61,009 nt of DNA, taken from assembly GCA_016280445.1 (NCBI GenBank), contig JAEEGS010000083.1, positions 1 through 61,009 of the forward strand. The letters are read 5' to 3'. The notes under the pieces are model-generated. The model saw nothing but the letters and a program-made list of their open reading frames with translations, did no database searches and was not told the origin of the DNA. Positions 4,698-61,009 of this stretch are shown here, in pieces. Position 1 is the first letter of the stretch. Every line of letters starts with the position of its first letter. The translations under genes and the position numbers were made by a program. This stretch comes from Bacteroidaceae bacterium. Its GTDB lineage: Bacteria; Bacteroidota; Bacteroidia; Bacteroidales; Bacteroidaceae.

Positions 4698-4722
4698 ATC
4701 TCTGTTTCCATTTTTTTCTCTT

Positions 4723-5098
4723 GAAGGTTCGGGCGTTTATTTCAACACGAATTTCACGAATTAGACAAATTTTGCCATGCGGACAGAATATTTATTCCCC
4801 GAAGCCGTGGACGGCTGCAAATTTCACGAACCATCCGGACGGCATTAGTGAAATTCGTAGCACAGAAGGTGCTTTGTGTAATACATTCTCGCTGCATAGT
4901 TTTGTGTAAATTCGTGTAATTCGTGTTAAAATGAACAATTGTCCCCTTCAATTTTCTCTCTCCATTCTTTCTGTGATTTCTGTGTGATATAAATCTTTCT
5001 TTCTGCGAGAGCCCGCATGGCTCTCTTTCTAATCTCACACAGAAAACACGGAAATTCACAGAAATCACAGAAATTTTCAATTTCCATTTTTTCCTCAT
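4723..5098 (+). repeat. Long tandem repeat, copy R1 (376 nt), with 184-nt palindromic-ended core at 4744-4927
   Basis: This copy and the next are near-identical direct repeats with a 376-nt period. The core starts AACACGAATTTCACGAATT (4744) and ends with the near-reverse-complement TAAATTCGTGTAATTCGTGT, so it carries terminal inverted repeats of about 27 nt. Inside are smaller hairpins, for example AATTTCAC paired with GTGAAATT around CCATCCGGACGG. The 3' part holds a long palindrome with apex GAGAGCC...GGCTCTC at 5007-5025. Open frames through it have no protein character. Confidence 0.85.
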
Positions 5099-5474
5099 GA
5101 AGGTTCGGACGTTTATTTCAACACGAATTTCACGAATTAGACAAATTTTGCCATGCGGACAGAATATTTATTCCCCGAAGCCGTGGACGGCTGCAAATAT
5201 CACGAACCATCCGGACGGCATTAGTGAAATTCGTAGCACAGAAGGTGCTTTGTGTAATACATTCTCGCTGCATAGTTTTGTGTAAATTCGTGTAATTCGT
5301 GTTAAAATGAGCAATTGTGCCCCTTCAACTTTCTCTCTCTTTTTTCTGTGTTTTCCGTGTTTTCTGTGTGAAATAATCTTTCTTTCTGCGAGAGCCCGCA
5401 TGGCTCTCTTTCTAATCTCACACAGAAATCACGGAAATTCACAGAAATCACAGAAATTTTCAATTTCCATTTCT
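5099..5474 (+). repeat. Long tandem repeat, copy R2, with core at 5120-5303
   Basis: Second direct copy of R1, beginning at the same GAAGGTTCGG(G/A)CGTTTATTTC boundary and differing at only a few positions. A third, inverted copy of the same family begins at 60697 and runs off the right edge. Apex hairpin at about 5390-5408. Confidence 0.85.
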
Positions 5475-9575: not shown

Positions 9576-11255
9576 CTATGCGATACTTGCCTTGATGAAG
9601 TCCATGAAGAGCGGGTGGGGATGGAGGACGGTGGAGGCGTATTCGGGATGGAACTGGGTGCCGATGAACCAGCGGAGTTCGGGAATCTCGACTATCTCCA
9701 CGAGGTGGGAGTTCGGGTTGATGCCCACGCACTGCATGCCGTGCTGCTCAAATTCTTCTTGGTATTGGTTATTGAACTCGTAGCGGTGACGGTGGCGCTC
9801 CTGGATGAGTTGCTTCTTGCCATAGGCCTGCCATGTGCGGCTGCCGCTGGCGAGTTCGCAGTCATAGGCTCCGAGACGCATCGTGCCGCCCATCTCGGTG
9901 ACGGTCTTCTGCTCTTCCATGAGGTCGATGACATTGTGCTGGGTCGAAGTGTTCATCTCCATGCTGTGGGCATCGGTGTAGCCAAGCACGTGGCGGGCAA
10001 ACTCGATGACCATCATCTGCATGCCGAGACAGATGCCGAAGGTGGGGATATCGTGGGTGCGGGTGTATTCGACAGCGGTGATTTTGCCTTCGATGCCACG
10101 CTGTCCGAAGCCCGGACAGATGACGGCTCCTGCCATCCCTTTGAGTTTTTCTTCTACATTGTCGGGAGTGATGTCTTCACTGTTGATGAAGTGAAGGCGC
10201 ACTTTCACATTGTTGTAGATGCCCGCGAGATTCAGGCTCTCACGAATGGATTTATAGGCATCTTGCAGGTCGTATTTGCCCACGAGTCCGATGTGGACTT
10301 CACGAGTGGCATTGCGTTGCTTGTCGAGGAAGTCGTGCCATGATTTCATGGAAGGTGTCTCACCCACAGGGATGCCAATCTTGCGCATGATGGCGGCATC
10401 GAGTCCTTGTCGCTGCATGCTGACGGGCACTTCGTAGATGCTGGGCATGTCCTCGCTCTGCACCACACATTCGAGGTCAACATTGCAGAAGGAGGCAACT
10501 TTCATGCGCAGGGCATCGTCGAGATGGCGCTCGGTTCTGAGCACAAGGATGTCGGGCTGGATGCCCATGCCCTGCAGTTCCTTGACGGAGTGCTGGGTGG
10601 GTTTTGTCTTCAGTTCTTCGGCTGCTTTCAGATAAGGTACGTAAGTGAGATGGACACACACGGCATCGCGACCCAGTTGCCAGCGCAGTTGTCGGATGGC
10701 CTCCATGAAGGGGGCACTCTCGATGTCGCCAATGGTGCCTCCCACTTCGGTGATGACGAAGTCGAAAGACCCTCTCCCCAGCCCTCCCCCGTAATGGGGA
10801 GGGAGACCGTCCGGATGGCTCTCCCCATTATGGGGGAGATGTCCGTTAGGACAGAGGGGGTCTTCCTCTCTCAACATTCTCCGTTTGATTTCATCAGTGA
10901 TGTGAGGCACGACTTGAATGGTCTTGCCGAGGTAGTCACCATGACGTTCGCGATCGATGACGGTCTTGTAGATGCGTCCAGTGGTGATGGAGTTGTTGCG
11001 TGTGGTGTGTATGCCCGTGAACCGCTCGTAGTGGCCAAGGTCGAGGTCGGTCTCCATGCCATCGACGGTGACGTAGCACTCGCCGTGTTCGTAGGGGTTG
11101 AGTGTGCCTGGGTCGATGTTGATGTAAGGGTCGAACTTCTGGATGGTGACTTTGTAGCCGCGTGCTTGCAGCAATTTGCCGATGCTGGCGGAGATGATGC
11201 CTTTGCCCAGAGAGGATACCACGCCGCCTGTGACGAAGATGTATTTTGTGTTCAT
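9576..11255 (-). CDS. pyrG: CTP synthase with in-frame palindromic-element insertion
   Basis: PyrG makes CTP from UTP, ATP and glutamine. The amidoligase half starts with the P-loop TGGVVSSLGKGI, and the GATase half has the nucleophile motif GICLGMQMM and the catalytic GTQFHPE. At residues 131-163 the usual short loop before FDFVITEVGGTIGDIES is replaced by a Pro/Gly/His-rich stretch (DPLCPNGHLPHNGES, then PPHYGGGLGRGS) encoded by the 97-nt palindromic element at 10767-10863. This explains the length of 559 residues against about 535-545 usually. The catalytic residues are intact, so the enzyme is probably active. It is the last gene of the gltB-gltD-dapL-purF-pyrG operon, 3 nt after purF. 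Confidence 0.96.
   Translation of the reverse strand: MNTKYIFVTGGVVSSLGKGIISASIGKLLQARGYKVTIQKFDPYINIDPGTLNPYEHGECYVTVDGMETDLDLGHYERFTGIHTTRNNSITTGRIYKTVIDRERHGDYLGKTIQVVPHITDEIKRRMLREEDPLCPNGHLPHNGESHPDGLPPHYGGGLGRGSFDFVITEVGGTIGDIESAPFMEAIRQLRWQLGRDAVCVHLTYVPYLKAAEELKTKPTQHSVKELQGMGIQPDILVLRTERHLDDALRMKVASFCNVDLECVVQSEDMPSIYEVPVSMQRQGLDAAIMRKIGIPVGETPSMKSWHDFLDKQRNATREVHIGLVGKYDLQDAYKSIRESLNLAGIYNNVKVRLHFINSEDITPDNVEEKLKGMAGAVICPGFGQRGIEGKITAVEYTRTHDIPTFGICLGMQMMVIEFARHVLGYTDAHSMEMNTSTQHNVIDLMEEQKTVTEMGGTMRLGAYDCELASGSRTWQAYGKKQLIQERHRHRYEFNNQYQEEFEQHGMQCVGINPNSHLVEIVEIPELRWFIGTQFHPEYASTVLHPHPLFMDFIKASIA
10767..10863 (-). repeat. Two-lobed palindromic element, copy 1, inside pyrG (97 nt)
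   Basis: Ends AGACCCTCT (10767) and AGAGGGGGTCT (10863) are inverted repeats. Lobe one is CCCTCCCC-CGTAAT-GGGGAGGG, lobe two CTCCCC-ATTAT-GGGGGAG, separated by CGTCCGGATGG. Relative to pyrG it lies in the opposite orientation from the copies in the GH2 and trmB genes, and it is translated without a stop in the frame used. Confidence 0.9.
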
Positions 11256-22570: not shown

Positions 22571-22580
22571 ACATCGGCGG

Positions 22581-22955
22581 TGGCCTGCACCAATATCATT
22601 GTAGGTAAGGGCGCGAGTGTTGATGGTAGTGTGATGGTCAGTTACAATGCTGACTCGTATGGGATGTTTGGGAACATCTATCACCATGTGGGTGGCTCGC
22701 ATGCGAAGGGGGAAATGCGGAGGGTGTACGATTGGGACACGAACAAGTTTCTGGGCGAGATTCCACAGGCGCGGGTGACTTACACGGTGAATGCTCAGAT
22801 GAACGAGAAGCAGGTGAGCATCACGGAGACCACGTTTGGCGGACGTGAGGAACTGTGGAAAACCGGAGACTCGGGGCAAAGCACCCAGGAGGTTTGTTCT
22901 GGGATTGATTACGGTTCGCTGATGTACATTGCATTGGAACGGGCTGCTTCGGCTC
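22581..22955 (+). pseudogene. Truncated duplicate of the C69 dipeptidase gene
   Basis: These 375 nt match 26989-27363 without a gap and with only about a dozen mismatches. They encode the mature N-terminus (ACTNIIVGKGASVDGSVMV) up to YIALERAASA. Signal peptide and start are missing at the left junction, and about 400 C-terminal residues are missing at the right one. After 22955 the frame runs into unrelated sequence and stops at 23041. Fragment of a dead gene copy; the low divergence suggests a recent event. Confidence 0.88.
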
Positions 22956-26918: not shown

Positions 26919-28622
26919 ATGATGAAAACAGTGAAATTTGTGATATCGGTGATGGTGTGGGTCTTGTCGGCTCTGGCTGTCACGGTGATGGCCTGCACCA
27001 ACATCATAGTAGGTAAGGGCGCGAGTGTTGATGGTAGCGTGATGGTCAGTTACAATGCTGACTCGTATGGGATGTTTGGGAACATCTATCACCATGTGGG
27101 TGGCACGCATGCGAAGGGGGAAATGCGGAAGGTGTACGATTGGGACACGAACAAGTTTCTGGGCGAGATTCCACAGGCGCCGGTGACTTACACGGTGAAT
27201 GCTCAGATGAACGAGAAGCAGGTGAGCATCACGGAGACTACGTTTGGCGGACGTGAGGAATTGTGGAAAACCGGAGACTCGGGGCAAAGCTCTCAGGAAC
27301 TTTGTTCTGGGATTGATTACGGTTCGCTGATGTACATTGCATTGGAACGGGCTGCTTCGGCTCGTGAGGCCATCAGGGTGATGACGTCGTTGGTGGAACA
27401 GTATGGCTATTGCTCGGAGGGTGAGTCTTTCTCCATCTGCGACAAGCAGGAGGCGTGGATTCTGGAGATGATAGGGAAGGGTGCTGGCGAGAAAGGTGCT
27501 GTGTGGGTGGCTGTGCGTATTCCCGATGACTGTGTGTCGGCTCATGCCAATCAGAGCCGCATCACGCGCTTGAGTCAGTATGACAAGAAGCAGGTGATGC
27601 GCTCGAAGGATGTGATTGCGTTTGCCCGCAAAAAGGGCTACTTCACGGGCAAGGATGCGGACTTCTCGTTCCGCGATGCTTATGCGCCCAACGATTTCGG
27701 TACCGTCCGCTATTGCGAGGCACGTGTGTGGAGCATCTTCAACCGTTTCTGTGACGGGATGGAGCGCTATGTGGAATATGCCAAGGGAAATGAATTGAAG
27801 GGCGAGATGCCGCTCTACATGAAGCCCGACAGGAAGATTTCTGTGCAGGATGTGATGAACGCCATGCGTGACCACTATGAGGACACGCCTTTCGATATTC
27901 GGAACGGAGTGGGGGCTGGTGCCTACAATATGCCTTACCGTCCCACGCCGTTGGAGTGGGAGAGTGAGGGCAAGACATACTTTAACGAAAGACCTGTTTC
28001 GACACAGCAGACAGCCTTCTCGTATGTGGGGCAGATGCGTGCTCAATATCCCGATGCCATCGGAGGTGTGGCGTGGGTGACAAACGATGACCCCAACATG
28101 GCTCCTTACGTGCCGCTCTATTGTGCCATCACGGAGATGCCCAAGTGTTTCCGGCGGATAGAAGGTGTGCAGGACGATGTCACTTTTTCTTGGGAGAGTG
28201 CCTTCTGGGTGCAGAATGCCGTGAGCAACATGGTCTATCCCTACTATGAGAAGATGTTCCCCGATGTGCTGAAGGAACGTGAGCGGATGGAGAAAAACGT
28301 GGCGGGTGAACCCCAGTTCGCCCAAGCGATGCTGACGCTCCTCCGCAACGAGGGTGAGGAGGCGCTGACTCGTCACCTCACGGATGCCGCCACCATTCAG
28401 GCGAACATGATGCTTGCTGCTTGGGTGCATCTCTACGAATACCTGATGGTGAAGCACCTCGATATGGCGGTGAAGAAGGTGGATGCCGATGACCCGTTGC
28501 TGCAGAACTTCAAGAAAACAGAGAACGGATTGGCAGAACCGCCAACCCGTCCAGGTTATCCCGAGTCGTTCCGCAAAAGAATTGTGGAAGAGGAGGGAGA
28601 AAGATGCTTGATGAAGAATTGA
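26919..28622 (+). CDS. C69-family dipeptidase (intact copy)
   Basis: The 567-residue protein starts with a signal peptide (MMKTVKFVISVMVWVLSALAVTVMA) directly followed by Cys26-Thr-Asn. In this N-terminal-nucleophile family the Cys is exposed by processing and is catalytic. The body has NADSYGMFG, DWDTNKFLGEIPQ, the conserved YGSLMYIALERAASAREAI and EAWILEMIGKG. The family cleaves dipeptides, and exported Bacteroidales members probably act in the periplasm on peptides. I start at 26919 because upstream in-frame codons precede the promoter's expected leader and the signal peptide begins here. The last codons merge into AATTGAAGAATTGAAG repeats. A broken copy lies at 22581. Confidence 0.9.
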   Translation: MMKTVKFVISVMVWVLSALAVTVMACTNIIVGKGASVDGSVMVSYNADSYGMFGNIYHHVGGTHAKGEMRKVYDWDTNKFLGEIPQAPVTYTVNAQMNEKQVSITETTFGGREELWKTGDSGQSSQELCSGIDYGSLMYIALERAASAREAIRVMTSLVEQYGYCSEGESFSICDKQEAWILEMIGKGAGEKGAVWVAVRIPDDCVSAHANQSRITRLSQYDKKQVMRSKDVIAFARKKGYFTGKDADFSFRDAYAPNDFGTVRYCEARVWSIFNRFCDGMERYVEYAKGNELKGEMPLYMKPDRKISVQDVMNAMRDHYEDTPFDIRNGVGAGAYNMPYRPTPLEWESEGKTYFNERPVSTQQTAFSYVGQMRAQYPDAIGGVAWVTNDDPNMAPYVPLYCAITEMPKCFRRIEGVQDDVTFSWESAFWVQNAVSNMVYPYYEKMFPDVLKERERMEKNVAGEPQFAQAMLTLLRNEGEEALTRHLTDAATIQANMMLAAWVHLYEYLMVKHLDMAVKKVDADDPLLQNFKKTENGLAEPPTRPGYPESFRKRIVEEEGERCLMKN

Positions 28623-28642
28623 AAAATTGCAGAATTGAAGAA

Positions 28643-28693
28643 TTGAAGTTTTGGGCTAACGCGATGCGCACTAACCGAATGGCAACTTCAATT
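28643..28693 (+). repeat. 51-nt dispersed repeat, copy 1
   Basis: TTGAAGTT...AACTTCAA ends form an 8-nt inverted repeat around GGCTAACGCGATGCGCA. It differs at three positions from the direct copy at 30215-30265. The two copies flank the carboxyltransferase gene. Immediately downstream (28694-28714) is the 21-nt GCTTCGCCGAGCTAAAGGTT motif shared with 5843 and 55283. Confidence 0.85.
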
Positions 28694-30181: not shown

Positions 30182-30214
30182 AAATAAAAATTGAAGAGTT
30201 GAAGAATTGAAGAG

Positions 30215-30265
30215 TTGAAGTTTTTGGCTAACGCGATGCGCATCAACCGAATGGCAACTTCAATT
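30215..30265 (+). repeat. 51-nt dispersed repeat, copy 2
   Basis: Direct copy of 28643-28693, in the 94-nt gap between the carboxyltransferase and biotin-carrier genes. Confidence 0.85.
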
Positions 30266-33955: not shown

Positions 33956-34086
33956 ATATACAATAAATAATTTGCCCAAAAAACGAGCACCCGTGCATCA
34001 CTGCAGAGGCACCCTGCATTTACAACACTTTTTTTAATTGTGACCGTCATGTCCGTTATCCCGCAGACATGCGTATACGTAGGCAA

Positions 34087-34295
34087 ATGGCAGGTCTTCT
34101 GACTGATCCTACAGATGTGCCGTCTTCCCGAAGATACTCAAAATCACGCCCGTAGGGCATAACCTTGACTCCAGTGACTCTGTTCGCACTCCTGTTAAAA
34201 AGGACTCACAGCATCGGGTAATGTCGCAGATTTTCACTGCATTCCCATCTTGGCCCCGTCACCGTCCCAAATGCATGGTTGCATGGGGGGAGGGG
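34087..34295 (-). ncRNA. Cobalamin (B12) riboswitch in the leader of the SLC13-accC operon
   Basis: Read on the minus strand the segment has the conserved blocks in order: GGGACGGTGACGGGGCCAAG, TGGGAATGCAGTGAAAATCT, GCGACATTACCCGATGCTGT, GAGTCACTGGAG, GGGAAGACGGCAC, and the closing TCAGAAGACCTGCC. These match the cobalamin riboswitch core, including the B12 box and the final AGAAGACCTGCC element. Promoter 16-47 nt upstream, SLC13 start codon about 130 nt downstream. Between them a TGCAG-GGTGCCT-CTGCA hairpin and a GCACGGGTGCTCGTTTTTT stretch could form the expression platform. Most members switch genes off when B12 is bound. Confidence 0.9.
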
Positions 34296-34310
34296 AACCA
34301 TTTGCGGCGG

Positions 34311-34342
34311 CAAAGGTAGTGCTTTTTCATTGTTTGTACAAG
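34311..34342 (-). promoter_or_regulatory. Promoter of the riboswitch-SLC13 operon
   Basis: Minus strand CTTG (34342-34339) and TACCTTTG (34318-34311), 20-nt spacer. Confidence 0.65.
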
Positions 34343-34389: not shown

Positions 34390-34412
34390 GCGGCTAAAAA
34401 TAATGCACAGAC

Positions 34413-36995
34413 ATGAAAAAAATACCACAGATTATCATCACGATGGCGTTCTGCTTCCTCGGGTTCGTTGGACATGCAGATGCGCAGTATATTGAGAAAT
34501 TGGAGGGGAAAGTGGCTGAGAATGCACCCCTGCGTGAGTTTGCGGAGCAGCAGCAGACGCTTTTCAATTTCGGTTGGAAATTTCAACTGGGTAATCCCGA
34601 CAAGGCTGAACGTGCCGACTTCGATGATAGCGGGTGGCGCACGTTGGATGTGCCACACGACTTTCAGTTTGAGCAGCCGTGGAACGAGAAGGAAGATATG
34701 GGGCGAGGGTTCAAGCCGATGTGTGAAGGTTGGTACCGCAAGACTTTCAACATTCCAGAAGCGTTGAAGGGCAAGCGCATCGTGTTGGACTTTGAGGGTG
34801 TGATGTATGTATGCGATGTCTATGTGAACGGCAAGAAGGTGGCGAGCAATGAGTATGGCTACACGGGTTTTGAGGCTGACATCTCGAAGGCGGTGCGTTA
34901 CGGTGGTGAGAACGTGGTGGCGGTCTATTCCAGCACGGGTCCCAAGAACGGTAGCCGTTGGTACACGGGTGGTGGCATCTATCGCAACGTGTGGCTGAAG
35001 GTGAGCAATCAGACACGAATCGCACGGCACGGTCTGTATATACAGACCCTCTCCCCAACCCTCCCCCGTAATGGGGAGGGAGACCCTGCGGGGTCTTTGT
35101 CGTCAGCAAACAAGCCGGATGGTTCTCCCCATTATGGGGGAGATGCCCAAAGGGCAGAGAGGGTCTGGTCTGTGAATGTGCAGGTGCAGGTTCAGAAATG
35201 GCAGAAGCACAATATTCTCATTCGTGCGCGCGTGAAGGATGCCGCTGGCAAGGTCGTGGCAACGGCAGAACAGGGCATGCCCGACCACACCAACCAGAAC
35301 AACACCGAAGTGCAGCTTCCTCCCATGTCCGTACAGAATCCCGCCTTGTGGGATTTGGATTCTCCCAACCTCTACACCGTCGAAGCCCTGCTCGTAGAAG
35401 ATGGCATCGTCATTGACTCTGTAGCCGACCAGTTTGGCTTCCGCACCATTGAGTATGGCACCGATTTCGGTTTCAAACTGAATGGCAAGAAGGTGTTCCT
35501 CACGGGTATTGCCAACCATCACGACCTCGGTGCCGTTGGTGTGGCAGCATTCCCAACTGCCGTTGAACGTCAACTCCGCCAACTGAAAGCCTTTGGCTAC
35601 AATGCCATCCGCTGTTCGCACAATCCCTATTCGGAGGACTTCTACGGCATCGCCGACCGCATCGGTCTGTTGGTGGTGGACGAACTCATCGACAAGTGGT
35701 CGGATAAGGACTATTGGGGTGGTCGCAAGCCCTTCATGCAGATATGGCCAGAACTGATGCAGGAGTGGGTGAAACGTGACCGCAACCATCCTTCAGTCGT
35801 GCTGTGGAGCCTCGGCAACGAACTCCAGACACGTTCCGACTGGAGCGGTTATCAGACCAATGACTGGGGCATCACGACTTACCGCATCTTTGACCAGATG
35901 GTGAAGCGATACGACAAGACGCGTCCCACCACTGTGGCGATGTTTCCTGCACGGGCAGGAGCACAGAGGGGCACTCCCGACTTCAAGACCTACCTCGTGC
36001 CGCCCGAACTGGCGTGTGTGACCGAGGTGGCATCATTCAATTACCAGTGGGATGCCTATCACGGCTACTACGAGCATGCGCCCCATCTCATCCTCTTCCA
36101 GAGCGAGGCGGTGACCAATCAGTTGCAGCAACCTTTCTACGGCATGAATCGTCAGCGTGGTGTGGGACTCTGCTGGTGGGGTGCCATCGAATATTGGGGC
36201 GAATCGAACGCATGGCCGAAGAAAGGGTGGAACTACTCGTTTTTCAGTCACACCTTGCAGCCCTATCCGCAGGCCTATCTCATCAAGTCGTGCATCCAAC
36301 CCGATGAGCCAGTGGTGTGCATCGGTGTGGTGGACGGCGAGGGTGAAAGCCTCGAATGGAACGACATCAAGGTGGGACAGCAGCGCATCAACCGAAATTG
36401 GAACCAAAAGGTGGGTTCACATCCCAATGTGTTCACTTACACTAATGCCGATGAGGTGGAACTCCTCTATAATGGAAAATCGTTGGGTGTACAGAAAAAT
36501 GACACCGCCGACATCGTGAAGCGCAACATCATCCTGTGGTCGGGCATCGACTATGGAACGGGCGGCAAACTTGTTGCCGTGGCCCGAACGAAAGGCAAGG
36601 AAGTGGCTCGTGACGAGATGGAGACAACTGGCAAGGCCGTCGCACTCCGCATAGAGGAAGAAACCCTTCCGATGGTTCATTGGGCAGCCGACGGCATGAC
36701 CCTCAAATATCTCAACATCTACGCCATCGACAGCAAGGGCAGGGTGGTGCCGAACGCAACAGACGGACTCACGGTGAAAGTGGAAGGTGCCGCTACCTTC
36801 GTTGCCCTCGACAATGGCGACCACTACACCGACGACCTTTTCCACGATGTGACCACCAAACAGATGCAGACAGGCTACATGCAGTGCATTCTCCGTAGCA
36901 CACGCACCGCAGGGAAGGTGACCCTCACCGTCACATCTCCCACCTTGAAAGGGGTGAAAACGGTGTTCAAGACCGAGAAAGTGCAGCAGTTCTGA
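34413..36995 (+). CDS. Exported GH2 beta-galactosidase-like glycoside hydrolase with in-frame palindromic insertion
   Basis: The 860-residue protein has a signal peptide ending near AHADA-QYIEK and is probably periplasmic. It has the N-terminal jelly roll (GWKFQLGNPDKAERADFDDSGW...DVPHDF), an immunoglobulin-like domain, and a TIM barrel with FLTGIANHHDLGAVG, the acid/base Glu in VLWSLGNELQT, and EAVTN near the nucleophile position. A DUF4982-like and C-terminal domain follow (TNADEVELLYNGKSLG). Residues 211-252, between LYI and VWSVNVQVQV, come from the 123-nt palindromic element at 35044-35166 ([13 protein letters not shown]...KPDGSPHYGGDAQRAER). It lies in the immunoglobulin-like domain, where a surface loop could accept it. 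Probably cleaves terminal beta-galactosides from plant or host glycans. Confidence 0.93.
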   Translation: MKKIPQIIITMAFCFLGFVGHADAQYIEKLEGKVAENAPLREFAEQQQTLFNFGWKFQLGNPDKAERADFDDSGWRTLDVPHDFQFEQPWNEKEDMGRGFKPMCEGWYRKTFNIPEALKGKRIVLDFEGVMYVCDVYVNGKKVASNEYGYTGFEADISKAVRYGGENVVAVYSSTGPKNGSRWYTGGGIYRNVWLKVSNQTRIARHGLYIQTLSPTLPRNGEGDPAGSLSSANKPDGSPHYGGDAQRAERVWSVNVQVQVQKWQKHNILIRARVKDAAGKVVATAEQGMPDHTNQNNTEVQLPPMSVQNPALWDLDSPNLYTVEALLVEDGIVIDSVADQFGFRTIEYGTDFGFKLNGKKVFLTGIANHHDLGAVGVAAFPTAVERQLRQLKAFGYNAIRCSHNPYSEDFYGIADRIGLLVVDELIDKWSDKDYWGGRKPFMQIWPELMQEWVKRDRNHPSVVLWSLGNELQTRSDWSGYQTNDWGITTYRIFDQMVKRYDKTRPTTVAMFPARAGAQRGTPDFKTYLVPPELACVTEVASFNYQWDAYHGYYEHAPHLILFQSEAVTNQLQQPFYGMNRQRGVGLCWWGAIEYWGESNAWPKKGWNYSFFSHTLQPYPQAYLIKSCIQPDEPVVCIGVVDGEGESLEWNDIKVGQQRINRNWNQKVGSHPNVFTYTNADEVELLYNGKSLGVQKNDTADIVKRNIILWSGIDYGTGGKLVAVARTKGKEVARDEMETTGKAVALRIEEETLPMVHWAADGMTLKYLNIYAIDSKGRVVPNATDGLTVKVEGAATFVALDNGDHYTDDLFHDVTTKQMQTGYMQCILRSTRTAGKVTLTVTSPTLKGVKTVFKTEKVQQF
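35044..35166 (+). repeat. Two-lobed palindromic element, copy 2, inside the GH2 gene (123 nt)
   Basis: AGACCCTCTCC at the left end, AGAGAGGGTCT at the right. Lobes are CCCTCCCC-CGTAAT-GGGGAGGG and CTCCCC-ATTAT-GGGGGAG; the middle holds GCCGGATGG as in the other copies. The length is exactly 41 codons. Confidence 0.92.
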
Positions 36996-38878: not shown

Positions 38879-38900
38879 GTAAAGGGAAAAAGTAAAAGTG

Positions 38901-38975
38901 AAAAGTGAAAAATTTGCTACCGCATGAGTACGTCACCTGTTGGCCTACTACTGCGGTAGCAAATTTTTCACTTTT
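38901..38975. terminator. 24-bp perfect inverted repeat between convergent genes
   Basis: AAAAGTGAAAAATTTGCTAC plus CGCA (38901-38924) pairs exactly with 38952-38975 across a 27-nt loop. It lies 22 nt after the mutase stop and 18 nt after the pseudouridine synthase stop on the other strand, so it can end both transcripts. Confidence 0.8.
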
Positions 38976-38993
38976 CCTTTTTCACTTTTCCTT

Positions 38994-40664
38994 TCAAATG
39001 GCTTTGTCCTCGAAGTGCAGCCACTTGCCTGTGAGTGGATGGCAGAAAGAGAGGCTTTCAGCGTGAAGGTAGAGGCGGTCGGAGGCTGTGCCGTAGAGGA
39101 TGTCGCCTTTGATGGGGCGGCCAAGTCCTTCGGGATGGGCGCAATGGATGCGGAGTTGGTGGGTGCGTCCGCTTTCGGGATAGAGTTCGATGCGGCGGGG
39201 CGAGGTGAACTCGTAGTAAGTGAAGGCGGGTTTGCCGAAACGGTGGTCGACCACTTGGCGCGGAGCGTCGAAGGGGTTCCGTGAGAGAGGCAGGGAGATG
39301 GTGCCATGGGAGAGTCCATCGACGGTGCGGAGTTCGGTGACGCCTGAGTGGGGCTCATGGTATAGATTGGAAGTTGAAAGTTGAGAGTCGGAAGTTGAAA
39401 GTAGCCGTTCCACCTGCTTGGCTTTGAGCAGCACCTTCTCGGGCATGGGAGAGGGTTCGTCGAGGATGGCGACATACTTCTTCATCATCTTGTGCTCCAT
39501 GAAGAGTTGCTGAATCCATTGGCAGGCCTCACGGGTCTTGGCGGCTATCATCACACCCGAGGTGTCTTGGTCAAGACGGTGCATGAGGACGTAGTTGGGA
39601 TTGAGGCTGAAGAGGTAATCCATGAGGGAGGGTTCGCCGTGATTGCGGCTGGGCACAGAAAGCAGCCCCGAAGGTTTATAGACAATCAGGAAATCGTCGG
39701 ATTCGTGGATGATGCGCACTCGCTTGAGCAGCAGTCGGGCACGGTGGAAGAGGGGATTCTCTTCGACGTTGAGCCCTTTGAGCATGAAGGTGAGGATGGG
39801 CACGCACTTGTGCTGGCATGCAGGATAGAAGTTCTTCTCGATGCGCATTTCGTTGCCCTTCGAAGGACCTATCCAGAACTCTTCCATGCAGATGGGTTTG
39901 AGTCCATGCTGATAGGCGTACTGGAGGAGTTTGGGAGCGCAACATTCGCCTGCTCCACCAGGGGGAACGCCGTACCTGCCTTTGGGCTTGGTGGCGATGC
40001 GTCCTTCCTTGTAAGCGATGTATTCCTCTTCGGGAAAGGGGGATTTGTAGTCTTTGAATATGTCGATGAGGTCGGCTTCTTCACCCTCGGCATTGCGCAT
40101 ACGGAACTGGCGGAATGTCCACATCTGCAGTTCTTGCGACATCTCTTTGCGGAGGGCTTTGAGACGGGCGATTTCTTCTCTTTTCTGTTGTTGCTCTGGG
40201 GTCTCTTCTGCAGGGTCGGGCTGTTTGCCGGGCAGGTCGCAGTAGAGGTTGTTGATGCGTTGGGTCAAGGCCATTATCTCCAGTTCCTTCTTACGAAAAT
40301 GTCCCTTGGGGTCTTGCAAATCGACCACAGGAGGCACGAAGCCCTTATGATGGTAGGAGCCGTTGTAGATGCCGGAAAAGGCGCGGAGGTAGTAGCGTTT
40401 CCCTTTGTGTTCGACGATGAGCACTCCAAACATCTTTCCTTCCTTCGGCACCATCTCGGGGGTGTTGTAGCAATACGCCACCACCTCGTCCACCACCGCA
40501 CGGCACAGTTTGTGCGGACGATAGCAGAAGGGGAAGGTGAATTCCTTGGGCGATTCGGTCTTCTGCATCTTGGCAGGGAGAGGATGCAGTTGCTGCCTCA
40601 ATCCGTCTCGGCCAAAGGTGTTGCGAAAAAAATGGAAAATGATATGGAATGGGTTGTTGCTCAT
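38994..40664 (-). CDS. RluA-family pseudouridine synthase, long form
   Basis: The 556-residue protein has the catalytic core in its C-terminal half: HESDDFLIVYKPSGLLSVPS, the catalytic Asp in MHRLDQDTSGVMIA, KKYVAILDEP and ELYPESGRTHQLRIHCAHPEG. It isomerises uridine to pseudouridine in rRNA or tRNA. The N-terminal 300 residues include a long charged helix (PGKQPDPAEETPEQQQKREE) and a Cys-rich segment, typical of the long Bacteroidota form. At residues 420-433 the sequence LLSTSDSQLSTSNLY is encoded by GAAGTTGAAAGTTGAGAGTC-type repeat DNA (39367-39405), resembling spacer repeats of this genome. The start overlaps the mrp stop by 4 nt. Confidence 0.88.
   Translation of the reverse strand: MSNNPFHIIFHFFRNTFGRDGLRQQLHPLPAKMQKTESPKEFTFPFCYRPHKLCRAVVDEVVAYCYNTPEMVPKEGKMFGVLIVEHKGKRYYLRAFSGIYNGSYHHKGFVPPVVDLQDPKGHFRKKELEIMALTQRINNLYCDLPGKQPDPAEETPEQQQKREEIARLKALRKEMSQELQMWTFRQFRMRNAEGEEADLIDIFKDYKSPFPEEEYIAYKEGRIATKPKGRYGVPPGGAGECCAPKLLQYAYQHGLKPICMEEFWIGPSKGNEMRIEKNFYPACQHKCVPILTFMLKGLNVEENPLFHRARLLLKRVRIIHESDDFLIVYKPSGLLSVPSRNHGEPSLMDYLFSLNPNYVLMHRLDQDTSGVMIAAKTREACQWIQQLFMEHKMMKKYVAILDEPSPMPEKVLLKAKQVERLLSTSDSQLSTSNLYHEPHSGVTELRTVDGLSHGTISLPLSRNPFDAPRQVVDHRFGKPAFTYYEFTSPRRIELYPESGRTHQLRIHCAHPEGLGRPIKGDILYGTASDRLYLHAESLSFCHPLTGKWLHFEDKAI
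39367..39405 (-). repeat. Simple GAAGTTGAAAGT repeat inside the pseudouridine synthase gene
   Basis: TTGGAAGTTGAAAGTTGAGA then GTCGGAAGTTGAAAGTAG. Similar AATTGAAG/GTTGAAG strings occur in the gene spacers at 28620, 30190 and 41765. In frame, translated as STSDSQLSTSN. Confidence 0.65.
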
Positions 40665-41761
40665 TGGCTGACTTCAACGCGCTGAGTGGGTGCCATCTCC
40701 ACATTTCGCTTGTCCACCTGTGTGACCACTTTGGCGGCAAGACTCATGAAGGCGATACCTTCAGGAGAGGCGGGATGGAGCACGGCTGGTTCACCGCTGT
40801 CGCCTGTCTCGCAGACGGATTGGATGAGCGGAATCTGTGCCAAAAGTGGCACTCCCAGTTCCTCGGCGAGTTGCTTGCAACCTTCTTTGCCGAAGATGTA
40901 GTATTTGTTCTCCGGAAGTTCGGCAGGCGTGAACCAAGCCATATTCTCGACGAGACCGAGGATGGGCACATTCACCTTGTCGTTCATGTACATGTTGATG
41001 CCTTTCCGGGCATCAGCCAATGCAACCTGCTGAGGGGTGGAAACGATGATGGCGCCCGTGATGCCGAGAGTTTGCAGGAGGGTCAGGTGGATGTCACTCG
41101 TGCCTGGAGGGGTGTCGAGAATGAAGTAGTCGAGGTCGCCCCATTGAGCCTCGGTGATGAGTTGCTTGAGCGCATTCGAAGCCATTCCTCCTCGCCAAAG
41201 GGTGGCTTGGTCGGGATTGACGAAGAAGCCGATGGAGAGCAACTTCACACCGTATTTCTCCACAGGCACGATGAGGTCACGTCCTTCCACCTGTACGGCA
41301 TAAGGACGCTCTTCCTCCACCCCAAACATCTTGGGCATCGAAGGACCGAAGATGTCGGTGTCGAGCAATCCCACCCGATAACCGAGTTTCGCTAATCCGA
41401 TGGCGAGGTTGGCGGTGACAGTCGATTTGCCCACACCGCCTTTGCCAGAACTGACTGCAATGATGTTCTTTACGCCTGGCAGCAACTTGTCGGGTTCAGG
41501 GGGTAGGGCGGTCTTGGCTTTCGTGCCGATGGTCACTTCCACATCGGGATGCACGAAGGTCTTGATGGCAGCCTCAGCCGCTTTCACAACAGATTTCTTG
41601 AAGGGGTCGGTCTCCTTCTCGAAGATGAGTGAGAAGGACACTTTCATGCCGTCGATGCGGAGATCATCCTCCAGCATCTCGTTTTCCATGATGCTCTTGC
41701 CATTGCCTGGATAACGCACGGTGGCGAGGGCATCGTGTATGAGTTTAGGATATATGGTCAT
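40661..41761 (-). CDS. mrp: Mrp/NBP35-family P-loop ATPase
   Basis: The 366-residue protein has an N-terminal MIP18/DUF59-type domain (residues 1-85), then a deviant Walker A SSGKGGVGKSTVTANLA, the DTDIFGPSMPKMFG switch and DTPPGTSDIHLTLLQ. Mrp proteins act as carriers for iron-sulfur clusters. In the position where many homologues carry a CxxC pair that holds the bridging cluster (after VENM), this protein reads AWFTPAELPENKYYIFG, with no Cys pair. This seems to be the Bacteroidota type. The gene overlaps the following pseudouridine synthase by 4 nt and follows trmB after a 39-nt gap of AATTGAAG repeats. Confidence 0.9.
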   Translation of the reverse strand: MTIYPKLIHDALATVRYPGNGKSIMENEMLEDDLRIDGMKVSFSLIFEKETDPFKKSVVKAAEAAIKTFVHPDVEVTIGTKAKTALPPEPDKLLPGVKNIIAVSSGKGGVGKSTVTANLAIGLAKLGYRVGLLDTDIFGPSMPKMFGVEEERPYAVQVEGRDLIVPVEKYGVKLLSIGFFVNPDQATLWRGGMASNALKQLITEAQWGDLDYFILDTPPGTSDIHLTLLQTLGITGAIIVSTPQQVALADARKGINMYMNDKVNVPILGLVENMAWFTPAELPENKYYIFGKEGCKQLAEELGVPLLAQIPLIQSVCETGDSGEPAVLHPASPEGIAFMSLAAKVVTQVDKRNVEMAPTQRVEVSQ

Positions 41762-41800
41762 GAAGAATTGAAGAATTGAAAAGTTGAAAAAATAGAAGTT

Positions 41801-42667
41801 TCACTTTCCTGTTTTCCGTGTGCTCACCACTTGGTGATTGTAAGAGCGATAACCGTCCACAGGAATCTCAATGTCGGGCTCTTCGAGGCTTCCTTCTTGA
41901 GGCAAGCGGAATTGCAGGTACTTGATGGGGATGCCACGTTCGAGCCACATGTTTTCGTAATAGGTGCGGATGTCGGTGAGAGAAGACCCTCTCTGTCCTA
42001 CGGACATCTCCCCCGTAATGGGGAGACCATCCGGCTTGTAGGTCGTTGGGGAACTTGCCGCAAGGTCTCCCTCCCCATTACGGGGGAGGGTCGGGGAGAG
42101 GGTCTCCCCATATAGGTCAAACGTACATTTCTCCATCTTCAACCCGTTCTTTTCCACCATATATTTAGTATAGGTGGCGAGGAAGTTGGAGTCGGTCTTC
42201 ACGTGAATGAGTCCTCCATCCACCAAGAACTTTCTGTAACGCGCCATGAAGTAGGTGGAGGTGAGCCGCTTGGTGGCTTTCTTCATCTGAGGGTCGGAGA
42301 AGGTGAGCCACAGTTCCGCCACCTCGTTGGGGGCGAAGAATGCGTCGATGATTTCGATGTTGGTGCGCAGAAAAGCCACGTTCTTCAAGCCTTCCTCGAG
42401 GGCAGTCTTGGCTCCGTGCCACATGCGGGCACCTTTGATGTCGACACCGATGAAGTTTTTATCGGGAAAACGACGTGCCAGCCCGATGGTGTATTCTCCA
42501 CGTCCACATCCTAGTTCGAGCACAATGGGATTGTCGTTCTTGAAGAACTCTTCATGCCATCTACCCTTCATGGGAAAACCTTCCTTCTGCAGTAGCCAGA
42601 AGGGGCACTCCACAACCAATGGATTCTCTGCCATTTCGGCGAATTTCGCGAGTTTTCCTTTTCCCAT
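41801..42667 (-). CDS. trmB: tRNA (guanine-N7)-methyltransferase with in-frame palindromic insertion
   Basis: The 288-residue protein has the SAM motif [29 protein letters not shown] and the substrate motif [17 protein letters not shown] (the PDPW-like region of TrmB). It methylates G46 in the tRNA variable loop. TrmB is usually 210-250 residues; here residues 188-228, between FDLYG and LTDIRTYYE, are encoded by the 122-nt palindromic element at 41984-42105 ([13 protein letters not shown]...[19 protein letters not shown]). The insertion is downstream of the active-site motifs, in a region that varies in family length. Start overlaps the dnaX stop (TAATG), so translation is coupled. Confidence 0.93.
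41984..42105 (-). repeat. Two-lobed palindromic element, copy 3, inside trmB (122 nt)
   Basis: Ends AGACCCTCTCTG (41984) and GGAGAGGGTCT (42105) are inverted. Lobes ATCTCCCC-CGTAAT-GGGGAGA and CCCTCCCC-ATTAC-GGGGGAGGG. Read along trmB it has the same orientation and frame as copy 2 in the GH2 gene, so both proteins carry [13 protein letters not shown]. Confidence 0.92.
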
Positions 42668-44439
42668 TATGCAAGTTCTAATTCAAATAACTCTGTCAGT
42701 TTCCGCAGTCCTTCACTCTGCTGGAGCATCATGCCGTAAATCTCTTTGCGGCTGTAGATGCGGCGTTTGTCTGTTATTTCACGCAGACGGGTTGTCATCT
42801 TGAGAGAGGAGTTCTGCAGACGTTGTTGCAGATACTTCTCGATGCGTGGCTGCATCTTCACCAGTTCCGCCTGAATGGAAGGGTTGTCGGCAATCACGAG
42901 GAAGGTGCTTCCATCTTCCTGCAGGGCGGGTTCCATGTTGTCCATTCGGCGTGACATGGCCGTATCTTCTTGTGGCAGTTGCTGGGCAAATTCCCTCCAT
43001 GCCACAATCAGGTTCATGTTGTCCACCGGCTTGTTCTCTCCGATGAACGTGTCCTTCTGGATGACCGCATCATTCTCTTGCTGCTGTTTTCTCGCTTGCA
43101 CTTCTTGTGCGGTTTTTCGGAGGGAGAAGCCTCGAACTCCTCCAACGCCAGCAGGAGAAAGTGTCCCTGTTCGCAAAGGAGCAGGGTTGACATGATGTTG
43201 AGGTTCCACCTTCCCTGAAGGAGGGGGAGGAGCCGCAACGGTCTGAACAGCCTCCACTTTGGGTTGTTGTGGGGCTAAGGCTTTCAGACGGTTGAATATG
43301 GGTTTGAGCATCTTCGTAGGGCCAAGCCCCGAAGCCTCCCCGTCATCGGAGGAGAGTTGTGCCATCTCGATGAGGGTGAGTTCGATGAACAGCCGTTTGT
43401 TCTGGCTCTGCTTATAGTTGAGGTCGCAGTTGTTGGCCAGTTTCATGGCTTGGAAGAGGAACTTGGGCTTACATTTCTGCGCCTGTTCGTGGTAGTGTTT
43501 CCTCACCTCTTCGCTGGCCTCGATGAGCCCTACGGTCTGTTTGTCTTGTGCCACCAGCAGGTTGCGGAAGTGGCTCGAAAGTCCGGTGATGAAGTATTGC
43601 CCTTCGAACCCTTTCGAGAGAATCTCGTTCAGGGTCAGCATGCACTCCGTGATTTTTCCTTCGAGGAAGTAGTCGGTCAGCCTGAAGTAGTAGTCGTAGT
43701 CGAGCACATTCAGGTTGGCGATGGTCTGCTGGTAAGTGATGTTTCCGCCGCAGAAGGAGGCCACTTGGTCGAAGATGCTGAGTGCATCTCGCATGCCGCC
43801 GTCTGCTTTTTGGGCAATCACGTTGAGTGCAGCATCCTCGGCCGTCATGCCTTCTTTCTCCGCGACATTCTTCAGGTGTCCCACGATGTCGTCCACCCCC
43901 ATGCGCTTGAAGTCGTAAATCTGACAACGGCTCATGATGGTGGGCAGTATCTTATGCTTTTCCGTTGTGGCCAGGATGAAGATGGCATGATGAGGTGGCT
44001 CCTCCAACGTCTTCAGGAAGGCGTTGAAGGCTGCCTGTGAGAGCATATGCACCTCGTCGATGATGAATACTTTGTATTTGCCAATCTGAGGGGGTATCCT
44101 CACCTGCTCAATCAGCAGGCGGATGTCCTCCACCGAGTTGTTGGAGGCAGCATCCAGTTCGTGGATGTTGTACGAGCGTCCCTCGTTGAATGCCTTGCAC
44201 GATTCACATTCGCCGCAAGCCTCTCCGTCCTGACGGGGAGTCAAGCAGTTGATGGTCTTGGCAAAGATGCGGGCGCATGTTGTCTTTCCCACGCCACGCG
44301 GACCGCAGAACAGGTAGGCATGTGCCAGTCGTCCGCTCTGTATGGCATTCTTCAGCGTTGTGGTCAGCGCACCTTGCCCCACCACTGTATCGAAGGTCAT
44401 GGGGCGGTACTTTCTGGCCGAAACAATGTAATTATTCAT
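42667..44439 (-). CDS. dnaX: DNA polymerase III subunits gamma/tau
   Basis: The 590-residue clamp-loader ATPase has Walker [17 protein letters not shown], the zinc-binding Cys set [39 protein letters not shown] and the SRC motif MSRCQIYDF. It loads the sliding clamp and bridges the replisome. The linker after residue 380 is rich in Pro and Ala. Within it, [20 protein letters not shown] (about 417-442) is encoded by GC-rich sequence with the look of an inserted palindromic repeat (43121-43186), which this unstructured linker would tolerate. No slippery A-run for making a short gamma form was noticed. Followed by trmB with a 1-nt overlap. Confidence 0.94.
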
Positions 44440-60506: not shown

Positions 60507-60696
60507 AAGAAAACACCCCACAAATTTCTCTTTCCCCACAATATTTTCTCAAAACACCCCCAAAAAACTTCCCCCTAACTCCTCTAACTCCCCTAACTCC
60601 CCCCCCTCACTCCAGTTCGTCTAATTCGTTGTGCAGAAAGCACACTCTACGAAATCCTCACCAATGAACTGTTCGTGTTCCTCGTGTTCTTCGTGT
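60507..60696. other. Gene-free AT/C-rich spacer upstream of malQ
   Basis: C-rich strings such as CCCCCTAACTCCTCTAACTC with four near-copies of CTCCNCTAA at 60580-60600, then TTCGTGTTC words that lead into the inverted R repeat. No gene seen. Confidence 0.5.
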
Positions 60697-61009
60697 TGAA
60701 ATAAACGTCCGAACCTTCATGAGGAAAAAATGGAAATTGAAAATTTCTGTGATTTCTGTGAATTTCCGTGATTTCTGTGTGATCTTTTTCCCCTCTCCCT
60801 AAACAGGGAGAGTCGGAGAGGGTCTTTCATTTTAACACGAATTACACTAATTTACACAAAACTATGCAGCGAGAATGTATTACACAAAGCACCTTCTGTG
60901 CTACTAATTTCACTAATGCCATCCGGATGGTTCGTGAAATTTGCAGCCGTCCACGGCTTCGGGGAATAATTATCCTGTCCGCATGGCAAATTTGTCTAAT
61001 TCGTGTAAT
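60697..61009 (-). repeat. Inverted, partial copy R3 of the long repeat (core from 60834), cut by the window edge
   Basis: From 60834 the sequence is the reverse complement of the R1/R2 core (4744-4927, 5120-5303) with scattered changes; the last few core bases lie outside the window. The part before it (60697-60780) matches the reverse of the R1/R2 junction, so this is also part of a tandem arrangement. The palindrome apex is replaced by the hairpin at 60790-60825. Confidence 0.85.
60790..60825 (-). repeat. Hairpin repeat (half-element) inserted in R3
   Basis: CTCTCCC-TAAACA-GGGAGAG stem loop followed by TCGGAGAGGGTCT. On the minus strand it begins AGACCCTCTCC, as do the elements in the GH2 gene and trmB, but it has only one lobe. 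Confidence 0.78.

Follow-up and report, generated by a model that had tools for sequence, protein, structure and literature searches.

The pyrG gene of a Prevotella-like bacterium, encoding CTP synthase, carries a 97-nt palindrome inside its open reading frame, which raises the questions of where such a sequence comes from, what moves it and how its host genes accommodate it. The window analysed here is a stretch of 61,009 nt, contig C18 of a draft genome (G000) that totals 3.07 Mb over 84 contigs. Among named records, PyrG is most similar in Prevotella, Prevotellaceae and uncultured Bacteroidales, several of these records being from sheep or RUG-named, and very near records may be absent from this set.

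The palindrome in pyrG is read in frame and is not a chance feature

The initial annotation placed a 97-nt palindrome in frame inside pyrG, and this is borne out: two inverted lobes, which we assign to family A, lie in a 559-aa reading frame that stays open through them (Table 1). The ends of the element are AGACCCTCT and AGAGGGGGTCT, and it is read as approximately residues 131-163 of PyrG. The rest of the enzyme is intact, as had been claimed, with both Pfam domains near full length (CTP_synth_N, profile positions 1-264 of 265; GATase, 2-189 of 190). The insert had also been said to add about 33 residues; the insertion itself stands, but the segment between the flanking helix and strand measures 57 residues here versus 27-30 in relatives with an empty site, so that the net gain is 27-30 residues.

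Chance does not account for the element. Hairpins of the CCCCATTATGGGG type, with up to two mismatches, gave 12 strand-wise matches at 6 sites of the window versus 1.06 expected, the RNA fold of the element has a z score of -3.29, and BLAST with the element returned 57 matches in the genome, with E = 2.2e-37 for the second copy. Rfam gave no match at the element, and an Rfam RNA family was discarded as its identity; the sole match in the window is a cobalamin riboswitch (RF00174, 73.1 bits; 34072-34317, minus strand), which adjoins the GH2 gene described below.

In an AlphaFold model of this PyrG (mean pLDDT 84), residues 131-162, which sit between a helix (115-127) and a strand (166-171), have pLDDT values below 50. 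Such very low values fit a predicted disorder of the insert and may partly reflect the few aligned rows that hold it; a conserved stretch of the enzyme (45-58) is also low in the model.

Table 1. Family A elements of the window, their lobes and the genes that contain them
Feature	Position in window	Strand	Basis
Palindromic element, family A, two inverted lobes, 97 nt	10767..10863	-	BLAST, RNA fold, lobe searches
Lobe type 1, about 48 nt	10767..10814	+	Lobe BLAST
Lobe type 2, about 53 nt	10811..10863	+	Lobe BLAST
pyrG, CTP synthase, 559 aa, open through the element	9576..11255	-	ORF, Pfam, structure model
Second family A copy, in frame in GH2 glycosidase	35044..35166	+	BLAST, lobe search, ORF
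GH2 glycosidase ORF (stop to stop) with second copy	34404..36992	+	ORF, Pfam
Third family A copy, in frame in TrmB-like methyltransferase	41984..42105	-	Lobe search, ORF
TrmB-like methyltransferase ORF (stop to stop; Pfam Methyltransf_4) with third copy	41804..42682	-	ORF, Pfam

Copies of the element lie in frame in unrelated genes

The same element recurs, as initially reported, in two other genes of the window (Table 1). The GH2 copy is missing from the orthologues read in G011, G019 and G043, and the TrmB-like copy from those read in G030 and G043, with a heptamer array in its place in G019. Across the genome, lobe searches of fetched stretches yielded 33 places (34 lobe clusters, minus two duplicates, plus one at L002; four weak BLAST places with no lobe match, C47:63240, C42:3327, C19:13076 and C7:83, were left out), 19 of them within ORFs that stay open and the remaining 14 between genes or at gene ends, for example the end of YbeY. 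Eighteen places lie within ORFs that read straight through with at least 60 codons on either side: PyrG, GH2, the TrmB-like protein, Mfd, a MalY-like aminotransferase, topoisomerase III, LeuRS, CobD, an ArsP-type permease, MutS2 (two copies), AroE, a cytidylyltransferase-like protein, CobJ-CbiC, a PcRGLX-type protein (two copies), a TPR-like protein and a primase-like protein. Gene names rest on Pfam, those of Mfd, MalY, AroE and CobJ being our reading of the domains; the TPR-like protein has Pfam matches below the cut-off, and the primase-like protein was named by eye with no Pfam match. The nineteenth genic place is in a helix-hairpin-helix protein (L142), with about 50 codons before the element. 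In the ORF listing, no gene was split in its middle by an element among the other places (a 612-aa ORF over L143:1353 was set aside as spurious). Mfd (L023, 3-2477) holds, besides its family A lobe, a second and different repeat-like segment, SPPAPEGGG...CPPPSGAGG.

By eye, 15 of the 19 genic copies share one orientation and frame (K/E/Q-TLSPTLP or near), for which the binomial p is 1e-6 if four open choices are equally likely. Genic elements vary in length (e.g. 97, 122, 123 and 184 nt), and some genes read the element DNA in a different frame or in the opposite orientation. We regard the element with high confidence as an in-frame mobile palindrome.

The window contains further repeats. A/T-rich short-unit repeats and hairpins, similar in kind, lie at 28611-28693, 30183-30265, 38882-38994 and 41752-41799. 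A 300-nt direct repeat, 97% identical, is found at 22575-22874 and 26983-27282, 4.4 kb apart, and another repeat, at 4705-5322 and 60682-60993, is present both as a direct pair (242 nt, 98%) and, close to the window end, in inverted orientation (up to 168 nt, 96%).

The PyrG loop of relatives is occupied patchily and by different inserts

PyrG was found in 41 of 45 genomes of the genus, and the loop was readable in 105 of 110 fetched loci (29 of 30 from the genus and 76 of 80 from named records; L059, L079, L096, L116 and L139 were unreadable at the site). The helix-strand segment has 27-30 residues in 94 of these 105 proteins and 48-76 in the other 11, in keeping with the clean gap that the initial annotation expected in most relatives. 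The 11 inserts fall by eye into at least five types, one of them nested inside another. Family A occupies the loop in G000, G011 and G029; family B, which has a core in common with A, in G043 and G026; heptamer-repeat arrays in G019 and L067; and three further inserts in L063, L066 and L069. In G030, a family D element lies within a remnant of A, and G029, whose pyrG flanks are 98-99% identical to those of G030, has plain A. In G007 the loop is short, REEQTLDF; its beginning resembles that of a D element, and a deletion may have left it as a scar.

On a pyrG tree built without the loop, the insert needs six changes, four of them forced by supported branches. Between G000 and G029, the pyrG flanks are 86% and 75% identical versus 99% for the element, which argues that family A was not simply inherited. 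Mobility of the element is supported by its patchy occurrence on this tree, by the differing inserts at one loop and by the many in-frame copies elsewhere.

Filled and empty sites in other genes identify the lobe as the unit

Sixteen insertions of the host genome were compared with relatives, 13 of them at the DNA level. G011, which has the most similar PyrG, lacks the insert at the AroE, GH2 and both PcRGLX-type sites and has one at the MalY, Mfd, TopB, CobD, permease and TPR-like sites. The insert often replaces 4-11 host codons, as judged by eye. AroE of G030 has its own A insertion in a different frame, and in G019 (TGTCAAC)n arrays take up the loops of AroE and TrmB that hold the element elsewhere. 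TopB of G000 and G011 has host sequence between two lobes, and that of G019 has the right lobe only, so that the single lobe is the unit; MalY-like, Mfd and CobD each contain a single lobe.

Family D occupies 27 places in G030 among the fetched stretches (31 rows, four of them duplicates). Fifteen of 19 D loci could be placed in G029 (L281, L297, L301 and L302 were not placed on both sides), where several hold another repeat and others a short loop. L292, by eye an RNase H linker, is the sole site with identical flanks: D is inserted exactly at ATGG^CTTCTC, with no target duplication relative to G029, an observation from one site, the comparison species being too diverged elsewhere. G029 has an unrelated hairpin at this spot. 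A target motif AGA/AGAC at the junctions was suggestive at GH2, LeuRS and AroE; we do not claim it because it is inconsistent in the G030/G029 set.

Other species carry heptamer arrays or hairpins, (TGTCAAC)n, (TTTAGGG)n and GGAATTAGGAATGAGG among them, in the same protein loops (L303 in G029, L034, L067, L245, L249, L255 and L321), and one such repeat in G029 is flanked by duplicated CTTC.

A gene for a DUF559 nuclease lies between lobes

Between leuA and leuC of the host genome, inverted A lobes surround a 130-aa ORF in an element of about 533 bp (C44:18935-19467). The ORF encodes a DUF559 protein (PF04480, E = 1.9e-30, 105.4 bits versus a cut-off of 20.6), with a solved homologue in the endonuclease-like protein 3hrl_A (E = 2.6e-18); DUF559 is described as Vsr-like in a passage of PMC12907096. 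In this leu operon (L144, 1556-3016), LeuC may begin with residues encoded by a lobe of the element (MKEYENTNKPDGSLPIMGE...), and its aconitase domain is complete. The initial annotation did not include this DUF559 partner, single-lobe units or the occurrence of several insert families in one loop.

PF04480 has a match in 25 of the 45 genus genomes; 35 near-complete copies were analysed, and seven partial or weak ones among the 42 rows were left out. Residues D43, E54, D56, G57 and H60 are invariant in all 35, and three of the 35 have an internal stop. An inverted repeat in the 330-nt flanks exceeds 60 dinucleotide shuffles for 28 of the 35 genes and is absent at this threshold from seven; in a repeat run, 26 of 35 loci were positive versus 3 of 64 windows shifted by 990 nt. 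Flank similarity reduces the 35 loci to 15 distinct contexts, 13 of which have at least one positive, and a five-member context with B lobes has one only, a marginal one. In the contexts L166/L183/L184/L195 and L170/L174/L189, one spot by flank similarity holds DUF559 genes with differing lobe families across species.

A G/C-rich lobed insert is present in pyrG of six genus genomes, and DUF559 in five of the six, with none found in G043. In each of the five, the insert family is by eye also a lobe family of a DUF559 gene (A in G000 and G011, A-type in G029, B in G026, where the B lobes form no significant inverted repeat, and D in G030), a match made easier in G011 and G030 because each has three DUF559 genes. 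We have good confidence in the partnership between DUF559 and the lobes.

Element numbers follow the nuclease loosely

Family D has at least 39 matches in G030, which has a D-lobed DUF559 gene, versus at least 4 in G029, which does not. Five or more A matches were counted in 16 of 25 genomes with a DUF559 match versus 4 of 20 without (p = 0.006, Fisher test, kinship ignored), and in 15 of 22 versus 5 of 23 if only near-complete DUF559 is considered (p = 0.003, kinship likewise ignored); these counts over 45 genomes, for families D and A, are lower bounds, with up to 19 candidates scored per genome. DUF559 was not found in three element-rich genomes, G041 (99% complete, at least 31 D matches), G036 (98% complete, at least 20 matches) and G021 (65% complete, at least 24 A matches). 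Strict tracking of lobe copy number by a cognate nuclease is rejected for families D and A in these 45 genomes.

Lobed DUF559 genes occur beyond the genus

Family A matches were obtained in at least 30 of the 45 genus genomes and in at least 28 of 301 genomes of the family, 12 of these being in the genus (a lower bound, with up to two candidates scored per genome). At the level of the phylum, PF04480 has a match in 109 of 198 genomes. Among 30 phylum loci taken from the best-scoring rows, bracketing inverted repeats were present in 19, and in 10 DUF559 lies in frame within a large ORF, where translated palindromes were seen by eye to flank it. Six of these ORFs were scanned with Pfam: MetH, LeuRS and HsdR were each found twice, each enclosing DUF559, and none of the six had a splicing domain.

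A PF04480 match was also present in 38 plasmid records. Seven of the 10 that were fetched are bracketed by lobes, namely those of Sphingomonas, Qipengyuania, Pseudanabaena, two Deinococcus and, marginally, Synechocystis and Picosynechococcus; those of Azospirillum, Photobacterium and Sinorhizobium have no lobes. In the two Deinococcus plasmids (L363 and L365), the lobed DUF559 gene is near hpa genes but not at the same place in both, which is suggestive of movement.

Discussion

Our study suggests that the insert in PyrG would be a non-autonomous, REP/MITE-like mobile palindrome. Its unit is the hairpin lobe, of about 45-55 bp, and many copies pair two inverted lobes around a variable middle. 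Lobes around a DUF559 gene of the Vsr/PD-(D/E)XK type form an element of very roughly 430-600 bp, the presumed autonomous partner. This nuclease probably cuts or nicks DNA on recognising the lobes cognate to it, after which the lobed DNA would be copied into new sites, often with the loss of a few host codons and, judging from the one exact site, apparently with no target duplication. Genic copies would survive if they read through in frame and lie in a loop that tolerates them; translation would then yield a segment rich in Pro, Gly and Ser and probably disordered. We consider this explanation as a whole, i.e. a lobed palindrome mobilised by a lobe-bracketed DUF559 nuclease and translated in tolerant loops, to be probable. 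Within it, DUF559 is the likeliest driver of the mobility of lobed elements, and we infer, from the DNA, that the insert peptides are made.

The most serious alternative, which we nevertheless think unlikely, is that another enzyme (a RAYT/HUH or DDE transposase, or host replication and repair) moves the palindromes, and that DUF559 is a homing-type passenger settled inside them. Elements are indeed abundant in some genomes where DUF559 was not found, and the DUF559 elements with differing lobes that share a genomic spot in some contexts fit a nuclease that invades palindromes. On the other side, RAYT was rejected as the engine, since PF01797 has one match in G000, of 21.8 bits and thus under the cut-off of 23, and among the BLAST positions no other gene is bracketed, by eye, by outward family A lobes. 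A lobe family also equals the insert family, by eye, in all five comparable genomes, and we retain mobilisation by DUF559 as the preferred reading.

It is very unlikely that the element is removed from the message like an intron, or skipped by the ribosome, leaving a normal protein. The byp elements of yeast mitochondria are hairpins inside genes, and the hairpins seen here are strong at the RNA level. However, 19 copies keep an open frame despite their varying length, as expected if they are translated, an argument that is weaker than it looks because the copies were picked by open frame. Still less credible is that PyrG has long inherited the insert vertically, under constraint at the protein level. 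Family A does lie at the same loop in three species, but related species hold other inserts or none, the changes forced on the pyrG tree and the near-identity of elements between diverged flanks contradict simple descent, and elsewhere in the genome genes read this DNA in further frames and in the reverse orientation. An assembly or binning artefact can practically be dismissed, even for a draft in 84 contigs, given that three separate genomes share this insert and its position, that eight further loci have other inserts there, and that copies lie inside contigs with orthologous flanks.

If mobilisation by DUF559 is correct, this domain would be the engine of many G/C-rich interspersed palindromes, which gives a widespread domain a testable role. 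Selfish DNA repeatedly remodels the loops of essential-type enzymes such as CTP synthase, LeuRS, MutS2 and MetH, and one loop takes different insert families. Among the matches listed for open-licence PMC papers, preprints excluded, we found no description of DUF559 with palindromes or of this palindrome family. In-frame palindromes first became known with the Rickettsia palindromic elements (RPEs), for which the passages covered name no moving enzyme, and the finding of a lobe-matched nuclease gene makes the mover of in-frame palindromes directly testable here.

The comparison with Rickettsia and Wolbachia made in the initial annotation is apt as to kind: the RPEs and WPEs are palindromes of about 150 bp, of several families, found in frame in unrelated protein genes (passages of PMC10969869 and PMC3733652), and the present elements are likewise in frame in unrelated protein genes and missing from relatives. 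They differ in belonging to another phylum, in having a lobe unit that occurs alone or paired, and in the nuclease gene between lobes. The Caulobacter protein VsrA (CCNA_02930) also has a DUF559 domain, and the DNA-damage response of cells lacking the methyltransferase ScmA reportedly depends on it; unlike the lobed nucleases, it is discussed as a predicted mismatch-repair endonuclease, and the main text has no words in "palindrom-" or "transpos-" (PMC12907096).

Like MITEs with an autonomous IS partner, the elements have terminal inverted repeats, internal variation and longer, gene-carrying relatives with the same ends (the lobe-DUF559-lobe element between leuA and leuC and the 28 of 35 bracketed genes of the genus, whose role in mobility is putative). 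Unlike MITEs, they made no target duplication at the one exact site, and the partner encodes a Vsr-like nuclease rather than a transposase. Homing endonucleases with a Vsr-like fold, of the I-Bth0305I type, are known. As in these and in inteins, a nuclease gene can lie in frame inside essential proteins (MetH, LeuRS); unlike them, the six ORFs scanned contain no intein splicing domain and the elements enter many unrelated sites.

With REP/REPIN sequences and their RAYT (REPtrons), the elements share hairpin units, single or as inverted pairs with a variable spacer, a bracketed gene and intragenic copies (passages of PMC3733652 and PMC8266576). Intragenic REPs are known from other bacteria too, the CGTC repeats from Bacteroidetes among others, and CGTC REPs, including RPE-4 and RPE-6, apparently have no dedicated transposase (as far as the passages of PMC3733652 go). 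In families A and D the ends read AGACCC / GGGTCT by eye, and the REP tags GTAG or CGTC were not seen in them; the bracketed gene is DUF559, whereas that of REPtrons is an HUH tyrosine transposase, and RAYT is only sub-cutoff in G000. On balance, we lean slightly towards a class of element for which the open-licence papers searched gave no description, in effect a REPtron without a transposase, in which a Vsr-type DUF559 endonuclease and its cognate palindromic lobes would seed protein genes with short palindromes, and at times with the entire nuclease gene, that survive as translated in-frame loops. Its range would cover Bacteroidota and, as judged by the flank test used there, Cyanobacteria, Deinococcota and sphingomonads.
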